Source of the DNA: Rhodopila globiformis
Lineage (GTDB): Bacteria > Pseudomonadota > Alphaproteobacteria > Acetobacterales > Acetobacteraceae
NCBI RefSeq assembly: GCF_002937115.1
Contig: NZ_NHRY01000250.1
Location: 1-64,000 of the forward strand
DNA: 64,000 nucleotides
Direction: 5' to 3'
The position numbers and the translations under genes are program-made. Numbering within the stretch: the stretch's first letter is position 1; each line of letters starts with the position of its first letter. Shown piece by piece: positions 40 to 49,047 of this stretch. The notes under the pieces were generated by a model that was not told where the DNA came from, did no database searches, and saw nothing but the letters and a program-made list of their open reading frames with translations.

Positions 40-1533
40 TTACCGGGTCTTCAGCACGGTCATCCCCGGCTGCGGCATCGACTCGGCCAGCAGGTCGATC
101 TGCATCAGCCGCCCGCCCCAGCTGCGGATCAAATCGGCGCCGGCGACCGCCCCGCGCGCATGGTTGGCGCCCTTGATCAGCACCTCGGGGCGCAGCGCCT
201 CGATCAGCGACTCGGGCGTGTCCTCGTCGAACAGGCACACCTGGTCGACGCAGGCGAAGCTGGCCAGCACGGCGGCGCGGGCGGCCTCCGGCTGCACCGG
301 ATGCGGCAGACCCTTGCTCCGCCGCACGCTGCTGTCGCTGTTGACCCCGACGATCAGCCGATCGCAGGCGGCGCGGGCCTGCTCCAGCAGGTGGATGTCG
401 CCCGGCTGCAGCAGGTCGAAATAGCCGTTGGTGAAGCCGACGCGCCAGCCGCGGTGGCGCCAGCGCTCGGCCTGCTCCACCGCCTGCTCACGGGTGACGA
501 CCTTGCGCAGGGCACTGCGCTGCGGCGTCAGCGCCGCCATCAGGTCAGCCTCCCGCACCACCGAGGCGCCGACCTTGCCGACGGAGATGCCGGCGGCCAG
601 GTTGGCCAGGCGCGCGGCAATCGGCAGGTCCAGCTTCGCCGCCAGGGCGGCGGCGAGCATCGCCAGCGCCGTGTCCCCGGCCCCGGAGGTGTCATAGACC
701 TCAGCCGCCTCGGCGGGGAAATGCTGCGAGCGGGTGGCGTCGACCAGCGTCATGCCGGCGTTGCCCAGCGTCACGACCACGGCGCCGAAGCCGTGCTGCG
801 CGCGCAGGGCCTGTGCCGCGGCAACGACCGCAACCTCGTTGTCCACCGGCATGTGCGTGGCGGCGGCGAGTTCCTGGCGGTTGGGCATGACTACGTCGGC
901 GCCGGCATAGCGGGCGAAATCGCTGCCACGCGGATCGACGATCAGCTTGCGGCCGGCCTTGCGGGCGGCCGCCACGAGTTGCATCGGCACGTCGCCCGAC
1001 AGCACGCCCTTGCCGTAGTCCGACAGCACGGTGACCGAGGTCGCCGCCATGGCATCCAGCGCGATGCGCACCATCCGTTCGGCCAGCCGCGGCTGGATCG
1101 GGTCGGTCTGCTCGCGATCGGCGCGCAGCAGGTGCTGGCCGGCGGCGATCAGCCGGGTCTTCTGGGTTGTGGTCCGCCCGCCCTGCACCATCAGCCAGGG
1201 CTCGACATTCGGCTGTCCGCCGATCAGCCCGGTCAGGTCCGACCCGGCCTGGTCGTCGCCGACGACCGAGATGAAGGCGGTTGCCGCCCCCAGGGCGGTA
1301 AGGTTGCGTACGACATTGCCGGCGCCGCCCGGCAGCGCCACTTCCCGCTCGATGGAAAGGACCGGAACCGGCGCTTCCTGGCTGATCCGCGTGACCTCGC
1401 CATAGGTGTAGCGGTCGAGCATGACGTCGCCGATGACCAGGACGCTGGTCCGCGCCAGGCGCCGGACGGCGCCCGCAAGGTCCGGCTGAGGCTCATCACC
1501 GCGCGATGCGGCTCCAGGGGTAATCTGGTTCAT
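40..1533 (-). CDS. hldE: Bifunctional heptose 7-phosphate kinase / heptose 1-phosphate adenylyltransferase
   Basis: This 497-aa protein has the two-domain HldE (RfaE) layout, which supplies ADP-heptose for the LPS inner core. The N-terminal ribokinase-fold kinase (about residues 28-335) shows DVMLDRY near 36, GGAGN near 69-73 and the catalytic GAGD at 284-287. The C-terminal nucleotidyltransferase-like domain (about 345-497) contains FTNGYFD near 367. However, the HxGH nucleotide-binding motif reads QPGD (376-379), and the usual C-terminal S-T-T nucleotide motif is replaced by ESMP near 484-487. The kinase half therefore looks intact and the adenylyltransferase half looks degenerate or diverged. 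Length is normal for the fused family. It is not in an obvious operon here, and the window edge hides what lies downstream. Confidence 0.9.
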   Translation of the reverse strand: MNQITPGAASRGDEPQPDLAGAVRRLARTSVLVIGDVMLDRYTYGEVTRISQEAPVPVLSIEREVALPGGAGNVVRNLTALGAATAFISVVGDDQAGSDLTGLIGGQPNVEPWLMVQGGRTTTQKTRLIAAGQHLLRADREQTDPIQPRLAERMVRIALDAMAATSVTVLSDYGKGVLSGDVPMQLVAAARKAGRKLIVDPRGSDFARYAGADVVMPNRQELAAATHMPVDNEVAVVAAAQALRAQHGFGAVVVTLGNAGMTLVDATRSQHFPAEAAEVYDTSGAGDTALAMLAAALAAKLDLPIAARLANLAAGISVGKVGASVVREADLMAALTPQRSALRKVVTREQAVEQAERWRHRGWRVGFTNGYFDLLQPGDIHLLEQARAACDRLIVGVNSDSSVRRSKGLPHPVQPEAARAAVLASFACVDQVCLFDEDTPESLIEALRPEVLIKGANHARGAVAGADLIRSWGGRLMQIDLLAESMPQPGMTVLKTR

Positions 1534-2451: not shown

Positions 2452-3204
2452 TCACGCTTGCAGGAAGGCCAGCTTGTCCTCTTCCAGCACGACGCAGGTC
2501 AGGGCGCCGCCCAGCACCGCCCCGGTGTCGATGGCGATCCGGTTGGGCTGGATCACCGGCTCCCGCTTCGGGGTATGGCCGTGGACGATCACCGCGCCGT
2601 GGTCCGCCCGCGACGACAGGAACGGCTCCCGGATCCAGATCATGTCGTGCCGGGTCTGCCGGTCCAGCGGCAGGCCGGGCAGGATGCCGGCATGGACGAA
2701 CAGGTAGGGGCCGGCGCGGTGGCTGATCGACAGGTCGCGCAGGAACAGCAGATGTTGCGGCGGTATATGGCTGGCCCACGCCTGCGGCGGCACGAGGCGG
2801 GAGATCCCCCAGCTGAGCAGCGAATCGGCCCCGCCGTTGGCCAGCCACAGCGAGGCCGCCTCCTTGTCCGCCCCGGCGATCGCGGCGAGCATCATTTCCT
2901 CGTGGTTTCCCATCAGGTTGATGATCTCGTCCGCCGGCACCGGCGGGCCGTTGATCAGCCAGTCCACCACCTGTGCGCTGTCCAGGCCGCGATCGACATA
3001 GTCGCCAAGATGTACCAGGGTCGTTTGCTCCGCCGGACGGGTGGCGATGTCCTCGGCGACCAGTTCGTGCAGGGCCGCGAGCCGGTCCATGCAGCCATGG
3101 ATGTCGCCGATGGCATAGATGCGCTGTCCAGGCGGCAAGGTCGCGGGGGCGGCGGCGAATTCAAGCATGGAGGCCAGACTAAGCCTGTCGGCGGATTTGG
3201 CCAA
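2452..3204 (-). CDS. Metallophosphoesterase, PPP-type serine/threonine phosphatase-like
   Basis: This 250-aa protein carries the three PPP metallophosphatase signatures: GDIHG at 33-37, GDYVDRG at 67-73 and GNHE at 99-102. Downstream metal-ligand histidines sit in HAGILPG and VHGHTP. Length and motif order match bacterial PrpA/PrpE-like or diadenosine-tetraphosphatase-like cytosolic phosphatases, so it hydrolyses phosphomonoesters with a dinuclear metal centre. The substrate cannot be told from sequence. The start is uncertain: position 3204 is a TTG, an in-frame ATG lies at 3168, and neither has a clear ribosome binding site. It is divergent from the ABC-2 transporter genes that follow, with about 60 bp between them. 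Confidence 0.85.
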   Translation of the reverse strand: MAKSADRLSLASMLEFAAAPATLPPGQRIYAIGDIHGCMDRLAALHELVAEDIATRPAEQTTLVHLGDYVDRGLDSAQVVDWLINGPPVPADEIINLMGNHEEMMLAAIAGADKEAASLWLANGGADSLLSWGISRLVPPQAWASHIPPQHLLFLRDLSISHRAGPYLFVHAGILPGLPLDRQTRHDMIWIREPFLSSRADHGAVIVHGHTPKREPVIQPNRIAIDTGAVLGGALTCVVLEEDKLAFLQA

Positions 3205-5463: not shown

Positions 5464-6024
5464 GGCATTGGCGCCACGGTAACCGCAAGCTGGTCAGAGC
5501 GTCCCTCGAGGGAAGGCAGGTCTCCCGAATCGTCTCGGCCCGGCGAGATCGTCTCCTTATCGTCATGGCCGGGCGTATCCCTGTCGCATGCGCATATCTC
5601 GGAAACGGCCTGCCGCGGCCCTGGCCCCTGTCGTCATGGCCAGCATGCCGAGGCTTGCCGCGATCAGGCGCGTGACACGGGGCCGGACGGCGACGGGGAC
5701 CCCCGGTATCTTGGCGTCTTGGCGTTGAACGGGAACCGTGCCACCGCGCCCGGCGCTGATGGGTGCGCTGCGCCGCTGGCCCGTGCGGTTGCTTCCACCG
5801 ATAAAACGCCAAGACGCCAAGATACCGGAGCATGCGTCACTGTCCGGGGTGGCGGCACCTGTCATGCCTTCGATCGCCCCTTGCCGATCCGTACCGGCGC
5901 GGGATCGGCACGAAGGCATTCCCACGGTATCCGGCCAAGGCGGCCCGGGTTGTTCCCGGGATGTGTGCACGCCGTAGGGCGTGTCCCGGCCATGACACGC
6001 CCGGCCATGACGGAAGGGTGCTCC
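5464..6024. other. Gene-free gap with repeats
   Basis: These 561 bases carry no supported gene. They hold partial GTCATGGCCGGGC-type palindromic fragments (around 5560-5640 and 5940-6015) and one long hairpin element at 5703-5828, listed separately. Confidence 0.55.
5703..5828. repeat. 126-bp hairpin element with 24-bp perfect inverted arms
   Basis: The arms at 5703-5726 and 5805-5828 are perfect inverted copies built on TCTTGGCGTCTTGGCGTT. The interior is itself imperfectly self-complementary, so the whole element can fold into one long hairpin. It carries no ORF of its own. It may be a MITE-like or REP-like element. I could not see a target-site duplication. Confidence 0.75.
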
Positions 6025-8618: not shown

Positions 8619-8698
8619 CGTCATGGCCCGGCTTGTCCGGGCCACCTATTCCAGCACTTGTGCCGCGACAGGTGACCCGGACAAGCCGGGCCATGACG
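8619..8698. repeat. Palindromic element, GTCATGGCCCGGCTTGTCC type
   Basis: The arms of about 29 bp (8619-8647 and 8670-8698) pair with one mismatch. The same arm sequence is found at 19007-19084 and 51976-52053. Confidence 0.85.
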
Positions 8699-47863: not shown

Positions 47864-49047
47864 GCTGTTCGATACACCCGTTGAAAGCGGCGGCCGAGGG
47901 ATGTCAGCACCTCATACCCGTTCGTGCCGGCCGCGGCGGCGACATCATCGGGCGACAGATGCGGGCCAAGAACCTCCAGCCAGCAACCGGGTTGCACGGC
48001 GGGGTGGTCGGTCACGTCGAATGTGGTCAGGTCCATGGAGATGCGGCCTACCAGCGGAACGGGGGTGCCGTCAAAGCACGCCGATGCGCGACCGGACAGA
48101 CTGCGGTGGTAGCCGTCGGCGTAGCCCAGCGCCGCGGTGGCGATTCGCGTCGGCCGCGCAGCGGTCCAGGTGGCGTTGTAGCCGACGGTGGCGCCGGCCG
48201 GCACCTGCCGCACGGCCAGCACCCGCACATGCAGGCGCACGACGCTCTGCATCGGATTCGGCCACCCGGGCGTCGGATTGATCCCGTACAGCGCCGCTCC
48301 CGGCCGGGCGAGGTCGGAGGCGAACTCCGACCCGAGGAAAATGCCTGAGGAATTCGCCAGGCTCAGCGGCGCCGGCGGCAGCATCGCCCGTGCCTCCGCC
48401 AGGCGTCGGCGTTGCAACTGGTTCAGTGGATCGTCCGCCACCTCGGAGGCGATCAGGTGCGACATCACATAGCGGATGGCCACCCCGTTGAGACGGCCCG
48501 GGTCGGCCGCCAGCGCCGCCATCGCCTCGGCATCCAGGCCCAGGCGGCTCATGCCGGTATCGACGTGCAGGATCGCCGGGTGAGGTCCCCGTCCCCTCGT
48601 CATGGCCGGGCGTGTCCCGGCCATCCGCCCCCCGCCGTTGACGCGCGGATGGCCGGGACAAGCCCGGCCATGACGAGGGGATGGGGCGCGCTCTGCGGCC
48701 ACCCGCCGCCAGCGGTCGATGTCGTCCAGGGAGCACAGCACCGGCGTGAGGTCGTTGGCGACATACGTCGCCTCGGTGCCGGGGATCGGGCCATTCAGCA
48801 CGGCGATCATGGCGCCGGGCAGCAGGTCGCGGACCTCCAGCGCTTCCTCCAGGTAGGCCACGAAGAAGTGCCGGCAGCCGGCTTCATACAGCGCCGCGGC
48901 GACCGGGCGGGCGCCCAGGCCGTAGGCGTCCGCCTTGATCACGCCGGCGACGCGACCCGACGGATGCCGCGCCGCCAGCGACCGCCAGTTGGCAACGACC
49001 GCAGCCAGGTCGATGTCGAGAACGGCGTGCGCCGTGTCAGCCGGCAT
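47860..49047 (-). CDS. alr: Alanine racemase with an in-frame palindromic insert
   Basis: This 395-aa PLP enzyme makes D-alanine for peptidoglycan. The PLP Lys38 is in IKADAYGLG, the HVDTGMSRLG motif is near 161-170, and the catalytic Tyr is in VGYNATWT with MDLTTFDVTD after it. Residues about 122-155 (APSPRHGRACPGHP through RPAMTRGRG) are not part of the family. They are translated from a palindromic repeat at 48593-48680 and make the protein about 30 residues longer than usual. All catalytic regions are intact, so the enzyme is likely active. It overlaps dnaB by 11 bases. Confidence 0.92.
   Translation of the reverse strand: MPADTAHAVLDIDLAAVVANWRSLAARHPSGRVAGVIKADAYGLGARPVAAALYEAGCRHFFVAYLEEALEVRDLLPGAMIAVLNGPIPGTEATYVANDLTPVLCSLDDIDRWRRVAAERAPSPRHGRACPGHPRVNGGGRMAGTRPAMTRGRGPHPAILHVDTGMSRLGLDAEAMAALAADPGRLNGVAIRYVMSHLIASEVADDPLNQLQRRRLAEARAMLPPAPLSLANSSGIFLGSEFASDLARPGAALYGINPTPGWPNPMQSVVRLHVRVLAVRQVPAGATVGYNATWTAARPTRIATAALGYADGYHRSLSGRASACFDGTPVPLVGRISMDLTTFDVTDHPAVQPGCWLEVLGPHLSPDDVAAAAGTNGYEVLTSLGRRFQRVYRTA
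48593..48680. repeat. Palindromic element inside alr, GTCATGGCCGGGC type
   Basis: The 36-bp arms at 48593-48628 and 48645-48680 pair with a single mismatch. The insert lies between the helix after LDDIDRWRRVAAER and the strand before HVDTG, where a loop can absorb extra residues. Confidence 0.92.

Follow-up and report, generated by a model that had tools for sequence, protein, structure and literature searches.

The window, that is, the whole stretch of 64,000 nucleotides of Rhodopila globiformis DNA that was analysed, begins with an HldE-like gene (positions 40–1533, minus strand; 497 aa, ATG start), hereafter hldE copy B or hldE-B, which combines a PfkB kinase half with a nucleotidyltransferase half. 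Its TAA stop codon occupies positions 40–42, leaving 39 bases before contig C250 ends. The Pfam domains PfkB and CTP_transf_like were found at residues 29–324 and 368–461, respectively. The kinase half (residues 24–335, positions 529–1464, minus strand), with the motifs GG..N, SDYGKG, NRQE and GAGD, matched TIGR02198 with 333.4 bits, just below the cut-off of 345, and the adenylyltransferase half (residues 355–483, positions 85–471, minus strand) matched TIGR02199 with 148.4 bits, below the cut-off of 181.5. Both NCBIfam domain cut-offs were missed, and nonetheless the HldE models matched both halves; moreover, HldC (5x9q) matched the second half by sequence. The predicted structure (mean pLDDT 89.4) showed a good fold in both halves, that of the adenylyltransferase half being of high confidence, with poor prediction of the first 14 residues and of residues 484–497, the latter carrying the lost ST block (pLDDT <50 in this C-terminal region). 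For HldC, a large movement of the C-terminal helix during catalysis has been described (PMC7993394, accessible text). The best structural matches of the model were Burkholderia cenocepacia HldA, the kinase half being 41% identical to 4e84, with a TM of 0.91 to the target.

An earlier sequence-only reading had held that the HxGH motif of the adenylyltransferase half reads QPGD, that the C-terminal S-T-T block is replaced by ESMP and that the kinase motifs are intact. Codons and alignment to intact copies bore out the first of these, placing Gln376-Pro-Gly-Asp379 at positions 397–408 (minus strand) with the codons CAG CCG GGC GAC; given CAG and GAC, each lost histidine is one base off a His codon. 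The second was confirmed too, since ESMP (residues 484–487, positions 73–84, minus strand) stands where intact copies carry GHST, residues 484–488 (ESMPQ) being aligned to the GHSTT block. A total of 13 out of 51 strict adenylyltransferase columns (conserved at ≥97% among 97 intact HldE copies) were changed, including H376Q, H379D, S486M and T487P. The motifs TNG, NSD, KG and EDTP of this half were kept, as were the sugar-phosphate motifs listed for HldC in the accessible text of PMC7993394. As to the kinase, the core motifs GG..N, SDYxKG, NxxE and GAGD are all there, together making a PfkB-type domain with GxGD and NxxE, and the hallmark of PfkB pseudoenzymes, a kinase domain that has lost ATP-site or catalytic residues, is absent; however, hldE-B has drifted at eight positions where both intact copies are strict (P52Q, K202R, T216M, V282T, T323A and three more). 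No second case of QPGD was found among 124 B loci, and loss of the ST block is common to the 15-member subclade of hldE-B (the G002 sequence ends before the block), which together argue that the loss of motifs did not arise by chance.

A PPP-like metallophosphatase (PF00149; positions 2452–3204, minus strand) lies upstream of hldE-B on the same strand, 0.9 kb away in the window. Among the loci for which a verdict was reached (two two-copy loci and one one-copy locus could not be told), such a gene was the immediate upstream neighbour of B at 57 of the 89 two-copy loci and at 10 of the 30 one-copy loci. As the family is multi-copy (three members in this genome, G000) and also occurs where B was not found, e.g. 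in G007, the link to B can only be called suggestive, and the metallophosphatase was rejected as a fixed partner of B. Between the two genes, a repeat search detected a palindromic intergenic repeat at positions 2077–2132. A palindromic intergenic repeat containing CGTCATGGCCGGG with at most one mismatch appeared at 26 sites in the window, where chance would give 0.5; many copies form closely spaced inverted pairs, and the sites include 2067–2079, 5561–5573, 8619–8698 and 48598–48675. Downstream of B, many members of the genus carry a beta-keto acid cleavage enzyme (BKACE, PF05853; e.g. L042:8217–9227), an arrangement seen in no genus but that of the window; the downstream side of hldE-B itself lies past the contig end.

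A second, intact HldE in the same genome

That another enzyme may perform the second step of ADP-heptose synthesis had also been proposed, with a separate hldC as the gene to look for. The general idea is supported by a complete second HldE, copy A (G000:C46:20549–21952), which carries HPGH and HSTT and has both sites intact by motif; the part concerning hldC did not hold, since the searches of G000 found no stand-alone hldC, the best stand-alone adenylyltransferase match reaching 22.9 bits. An HldA-type split with a separately encoded HldC was thus rejected for this genome, where a whole HldE was found instead. Copy A is 45% identical to hldE-B and clears both domain cut-offs, with 350.4 bits for TIGR02198 (345) and 189.1 bits for TIGR02199 (181.5). 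Judged by the motifs of this intact copy, G000 is not short of an adenylyltransferase. Copy A adjoins, on C46, a large glycosyltransferase-like frame with a Glyco_transf_9 match, and further Glyco_transf_9 proteins are encoded in the genome, along with a gmhA-like gene on C100 (under its model cut-off) and hldD on C237 (above its model cut-off). Furthermore, C217 (L145:1600–4466) encodes a sugar nucleotidyltransferase fused to a GmhB-like phosphatase, the sole GmhB-like stretch found in G000, beside an HddA-like GHMP kinase; this is likely a GDP-heptose gene set.

Copies A and B within the genus

The genus-level comparison covered 33 genomes, the relatives including Rhodopila, Acidisphaera sp. 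S103 and other Acetobacteraceae. Copy B, complete or partial, was present in 31 of them, the exceptions being G007 and G017; the former (99% complete) has A. Conversely, A was not found in G020 and G021 (86% and 77% complete, respectively), which are relatives of the genome bearing hldE-B. Loss of HxGH among the B copies of the genus was observed in the window copy, in G011 and G027, and in G003, and the frame of the G001 copy stops after the kinase half. The B copy of the isolate Acidisphaera sp. S103 retains HQGH and has no ST block. All the A copies of the genus in the motif table were intact. On the tree, the divergence between A and B predates the genus, and the A copies form at least two groups, the root of the wider tree being weak.

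Conservation of the two halves was compared in 19 same-genus genome pairs, which overlap (two more pairs had no A). The adenylyltransferase half was better conserved in A than in B in 15 of them, the four exceptions being sister pairs with HQGH and without the ST block, and the kinase half was better conserved in B than in A in 17. Sister B copies that had lost only the ST block (G025, G006 and G008; G005 and G018) gave omega values of 0.00–0.04 for the adenylyltransferase half; under such strong purifying selection, a missing ST block cannot by itself be taken to show that the domain is dead. For the same half of hldE-B against G025, G006 and G008, omega was 0.16–0.21, relaxed yet not free. 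The loss of both histidines, rather than that of the ST block, is the stronger evidence for a dead half in hldE-B.

Decay of the adenylyltransferase half across the Acetobacteraceae

A total of 150 Acetobacteraceae genomes were surveyed, 147 of which had an HldE match at E ≤ 1e−40, and the motifs of B were read in one alignment. Of the 124 B loci, seven cut by contig ends (G002, G004, G014, G027, G029, G095 and G165) and those of G020 and G021, with no A found, were left uncounted. Eight genomes with two matches (G060, G113, G145, G149, G155, G158, G188 and G201) were unclassified, as no B was among the matches listed. Of the 31 B-only genomes, 29 had a B with intact adenylyltransferase motifs. 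Among the 84 classifiable two-copy genomes, this half was intact in 13, degraded in 58 and missing in 13; for 28 two-copy genomes, A was called from search matches rather than from motif reading, and some of these matches are contig fragments (G073, G091, G095, G106 and G165). The difference in intact B between B-only and two-copy genomes was pronounced when relatedness was ignored (Fisher's exact test, P = 6e−15). In the tree of the kinase half, an irreversible model gave about 12 losses of the intact adenylyltransferase half of B and 11 losses of HxGH, that of hldE-B being a separate event, and the minimum number of changes with gains permitted was 11. The independent-pairs test gave three supported pairs only, with 1.6 on average for the association and none against, too few for significance. 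The link between a second HldE and the decay of B is strong by count, with few phylogenetically independent comparisons behind it. Copies of A whose motifs were read kept HGH, KG and ST as well as the kinase motifs in 68 cases out of 68.

A TIGR02199 match above the cut-off, namely B itself, was present in 29 of the 31 B-only genomes. The two exceptions, G151 (B locus L185, 100% complete) and G143 (L202, 84% complete), have a degraded B and no other HldE was found in them, so that decay also occurs outside two-copy genomes; these strains may either have given up ADP-heptose or rely on an enzyme that escaped detection. Weaker second TIGR02199 matches appeared in G094 and G101, lying within a 544-aa and a 527-aa ORF, respectively, so that 'B only' there means without a second ordinary HldE. 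The reverse of the situation in hldE-B was seen in G150 (L150) and G063 (L187), where the adenylyltransferase half of B is intact and the kinase motifs are altered.

The kinase half in other B copies

In the PfkB fold, the sugar site and the lid belong to the N-terminal half of the kinase and the ATP site to the C-terminal half; accordingly, the N-half of the copy B kinase (residues 24–180, window numbering) is taken here as the sugar-binding side and the C-half as the ATP side. The kinase motifs of B were altered in 51 two-copy loci (one of them, G106, merely cut short), including 36 of the 58 two-copy copies with a degraded adenylyltransferase half and 11 of the 13 without this half. Measured against the columns strictly conserved among B-only genomes, these 47 proteins retained 0.95–0.98 in the N-half but only 0.62–0.78 in the C-half. 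Asn218 was kept in none of the 47, the catalytic Asp287 in all 47 and GxGD in 31. Within this group, identity reached 0.757 in the N-half and 0.494 in the C-half, compared to 0.716 and 0.692, respectively, within the B-only genomes. Omega for the kinase half ranged from 0.03 to 0.27 in pairs of genomes with an altered B; selection is thus still purifying, and these copies are not pseudogene-like. The retention of the N-half together with the alteration of the C-half suggests that they have been kept for binding rather than for phosphate transfer. hldE-B, as judged by its motifs, is not itself at this stage.

Interpretation

The reading that best fits these results, with a probability of about 0.8, is that copy A makes ADP-heptose and that B is a superseded HldE paralogue whose adenylyltransferase half has decayed and become catalytically dead. 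Copy A would carry out both steps, kinase and adenylyltransferase, and once it supplied ADP-heptose, the second activity of B would have become dispensable and decayed. Other B copies, too, have repeatedly lost this half, almost invariably in genomes with a second HldE. By its residues, the adenylyltransferase half of hldE-B is almost surely dead, and the kinase half, with its core motifs in place, probably still works. With less assurance, hldE-B may have been kept because it still acts as a heptose 7-phosphate kinase or, failing that, still binds its sugar phosphate, and its broken half could represent a stage on a path along which other genera have gone on to lose the domain and the ATP site. 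Against the superseded-copy reading stand the 13 two-copy genomes with an intact B, the degraded B of the B-only genomes G151 and G143, the absence of a detected A in G020 and G021, and the HldC sugar-phosphate motifs kept in hldE-B.

A possible alternative, to which we give clearly less than even odds, is that the B lineage is becoming a non-catalytic, sugar-phosphate-binding pseudoenzyme (a sensor, scaffold or partner subunit), with hldE-B at an early stage in which the adenylyltransferase site alone has gone. The contrast between the two kinase halves of the 47 altered copies, the universal loss of Asn218 among them and their low omega are what this would predict, and pfkB-type proteins with regulatory roles exist, as described for plant FLN1/FLN2 in the accessible text of PMC3409070. 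However, the same copies retain Asp287 throughout and GxGD in most cases, a kinase using a different phosphate donor or substrate would look alike, the sugar side was assigned on what is generally known of PfkB folds, not on a ligand-bound model, and the ATP-side motifs of hldE-B are still there. A more elaborate version is somewhat more doubtful: B would be a repeatedly evolved pseudoenzyme lineage that lost the adenylyltransferase half and then the ATP site after a second HldE took over, its strictly selected sugar-phosphate-binding half, often beside a PPP-type metallophosphatase, serving as a heptose-linked sensor or regulatory subunit, with hldE-B again an early stage.

It is unlikely that the two copies divide the labour, with kinase activity coming from B and adenylyltransferase activity from A as in a split HldA and HldC, even if the opposite conservation of the two halves in the genus pairs (17 and 15 of 19) is what such a division would leave. 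The kinase motifs are intact in every motif-read A copy and altered in many two-copy B copies, where A must then do both steps, and the nearly complete G007 has A with no B found. For these reasons, an HldA/HldC-like split was rejected as a general explanation.

That the adenylyltransferase half of hldE-B still works, whether through its changed residues or with a different nucleotide or sugar as substrate, is very improbable. Its remaining motifs, the good fold of the predicted model and the strong constraint on ST-less sisters speak for it. Both HxGH histidines are gone, though, at positions conserved in at least 97% of the intact copies, and single changes of this kind abolish activity in enzymes of related fold, which are not HldE: according to the accessible parts of the sources, H28A, H28D, H31A and H31D brought both reactions of a bifunctional FAD synthetase below the detection limit (PMC3509593), and the ATP sulfurylase of human PAPS synthase needs the histidines of its HNGH motif (PMC11697783). 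An assembly or sequencing error, suggested by the nearby contig end and by the single-base distance of both His codons, is the least credible explanation, as the frame is open throughout, ST loss and other changes are common to 13 relatives from separate assemblies, and two errors falling on exactly the two catalytic histidines are unlikely.

Annotation pipelines would likely call hldE-B a bifunctional HldE and count two complete ADP-heptose enzymes, where only one of the two copies plausibly does both steps. Within the family, B copies range from intact ones through those lacking a motif or the whole domain to those with an altered ATP site, and the intact paralogue serves as an internal control. 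In such a series one could directly test how one of two activities is shed by a two-domain enzyme and whether what is left of it assumes a new, non-catalytic role in envelope sugar metabolism.

Comparison with known systems

The open-access library searched yielded nothing on paired hldE copies or on loss of the adenylyltransferase half in Acetobacteraceae. The plant proteins FLN1/FLN2 are a possible parallel in that a pfkB fold has been kept for a non-phosphorylating role, but they belong to an unrelated lineage and setting, and no regulatory partner of B is known. The biochemistry of HldE and the occurrence of the split HldA and HldC are treated in PMC10948575 and PMC7993394, as far as their accessible text goes. 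The split system, found e.g. in Burkholderia and Neisseria, resembles the present case in the likeness of the hldE-B kinase half to HldA 4e84, and the kinase-only B copies of relatives, such as that of G202, share the HldA layout. In contrast to HldA, hldE-B still has an adenylyltransferase domain, predicted to fold although its motifs are lost, and in most of the kinase-only B copies the ATP-site motifs are altered; furthermore, the second step in G000 would be covered by a whole HldE and not by a stand-alone HldC. HldE (RfaE) is a bifunctional heptose 7-phosphate kinase/heptose 1-phosphate adenylyltransferase, with which hldE-B shares the two-domain layout, homology over both halves and the core kinase motifs. 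It differs from HldE in being devoid of HxGH and of the ST block, in scoring under both NCBIfam cut-offs and in coexisting with an intact HldE.
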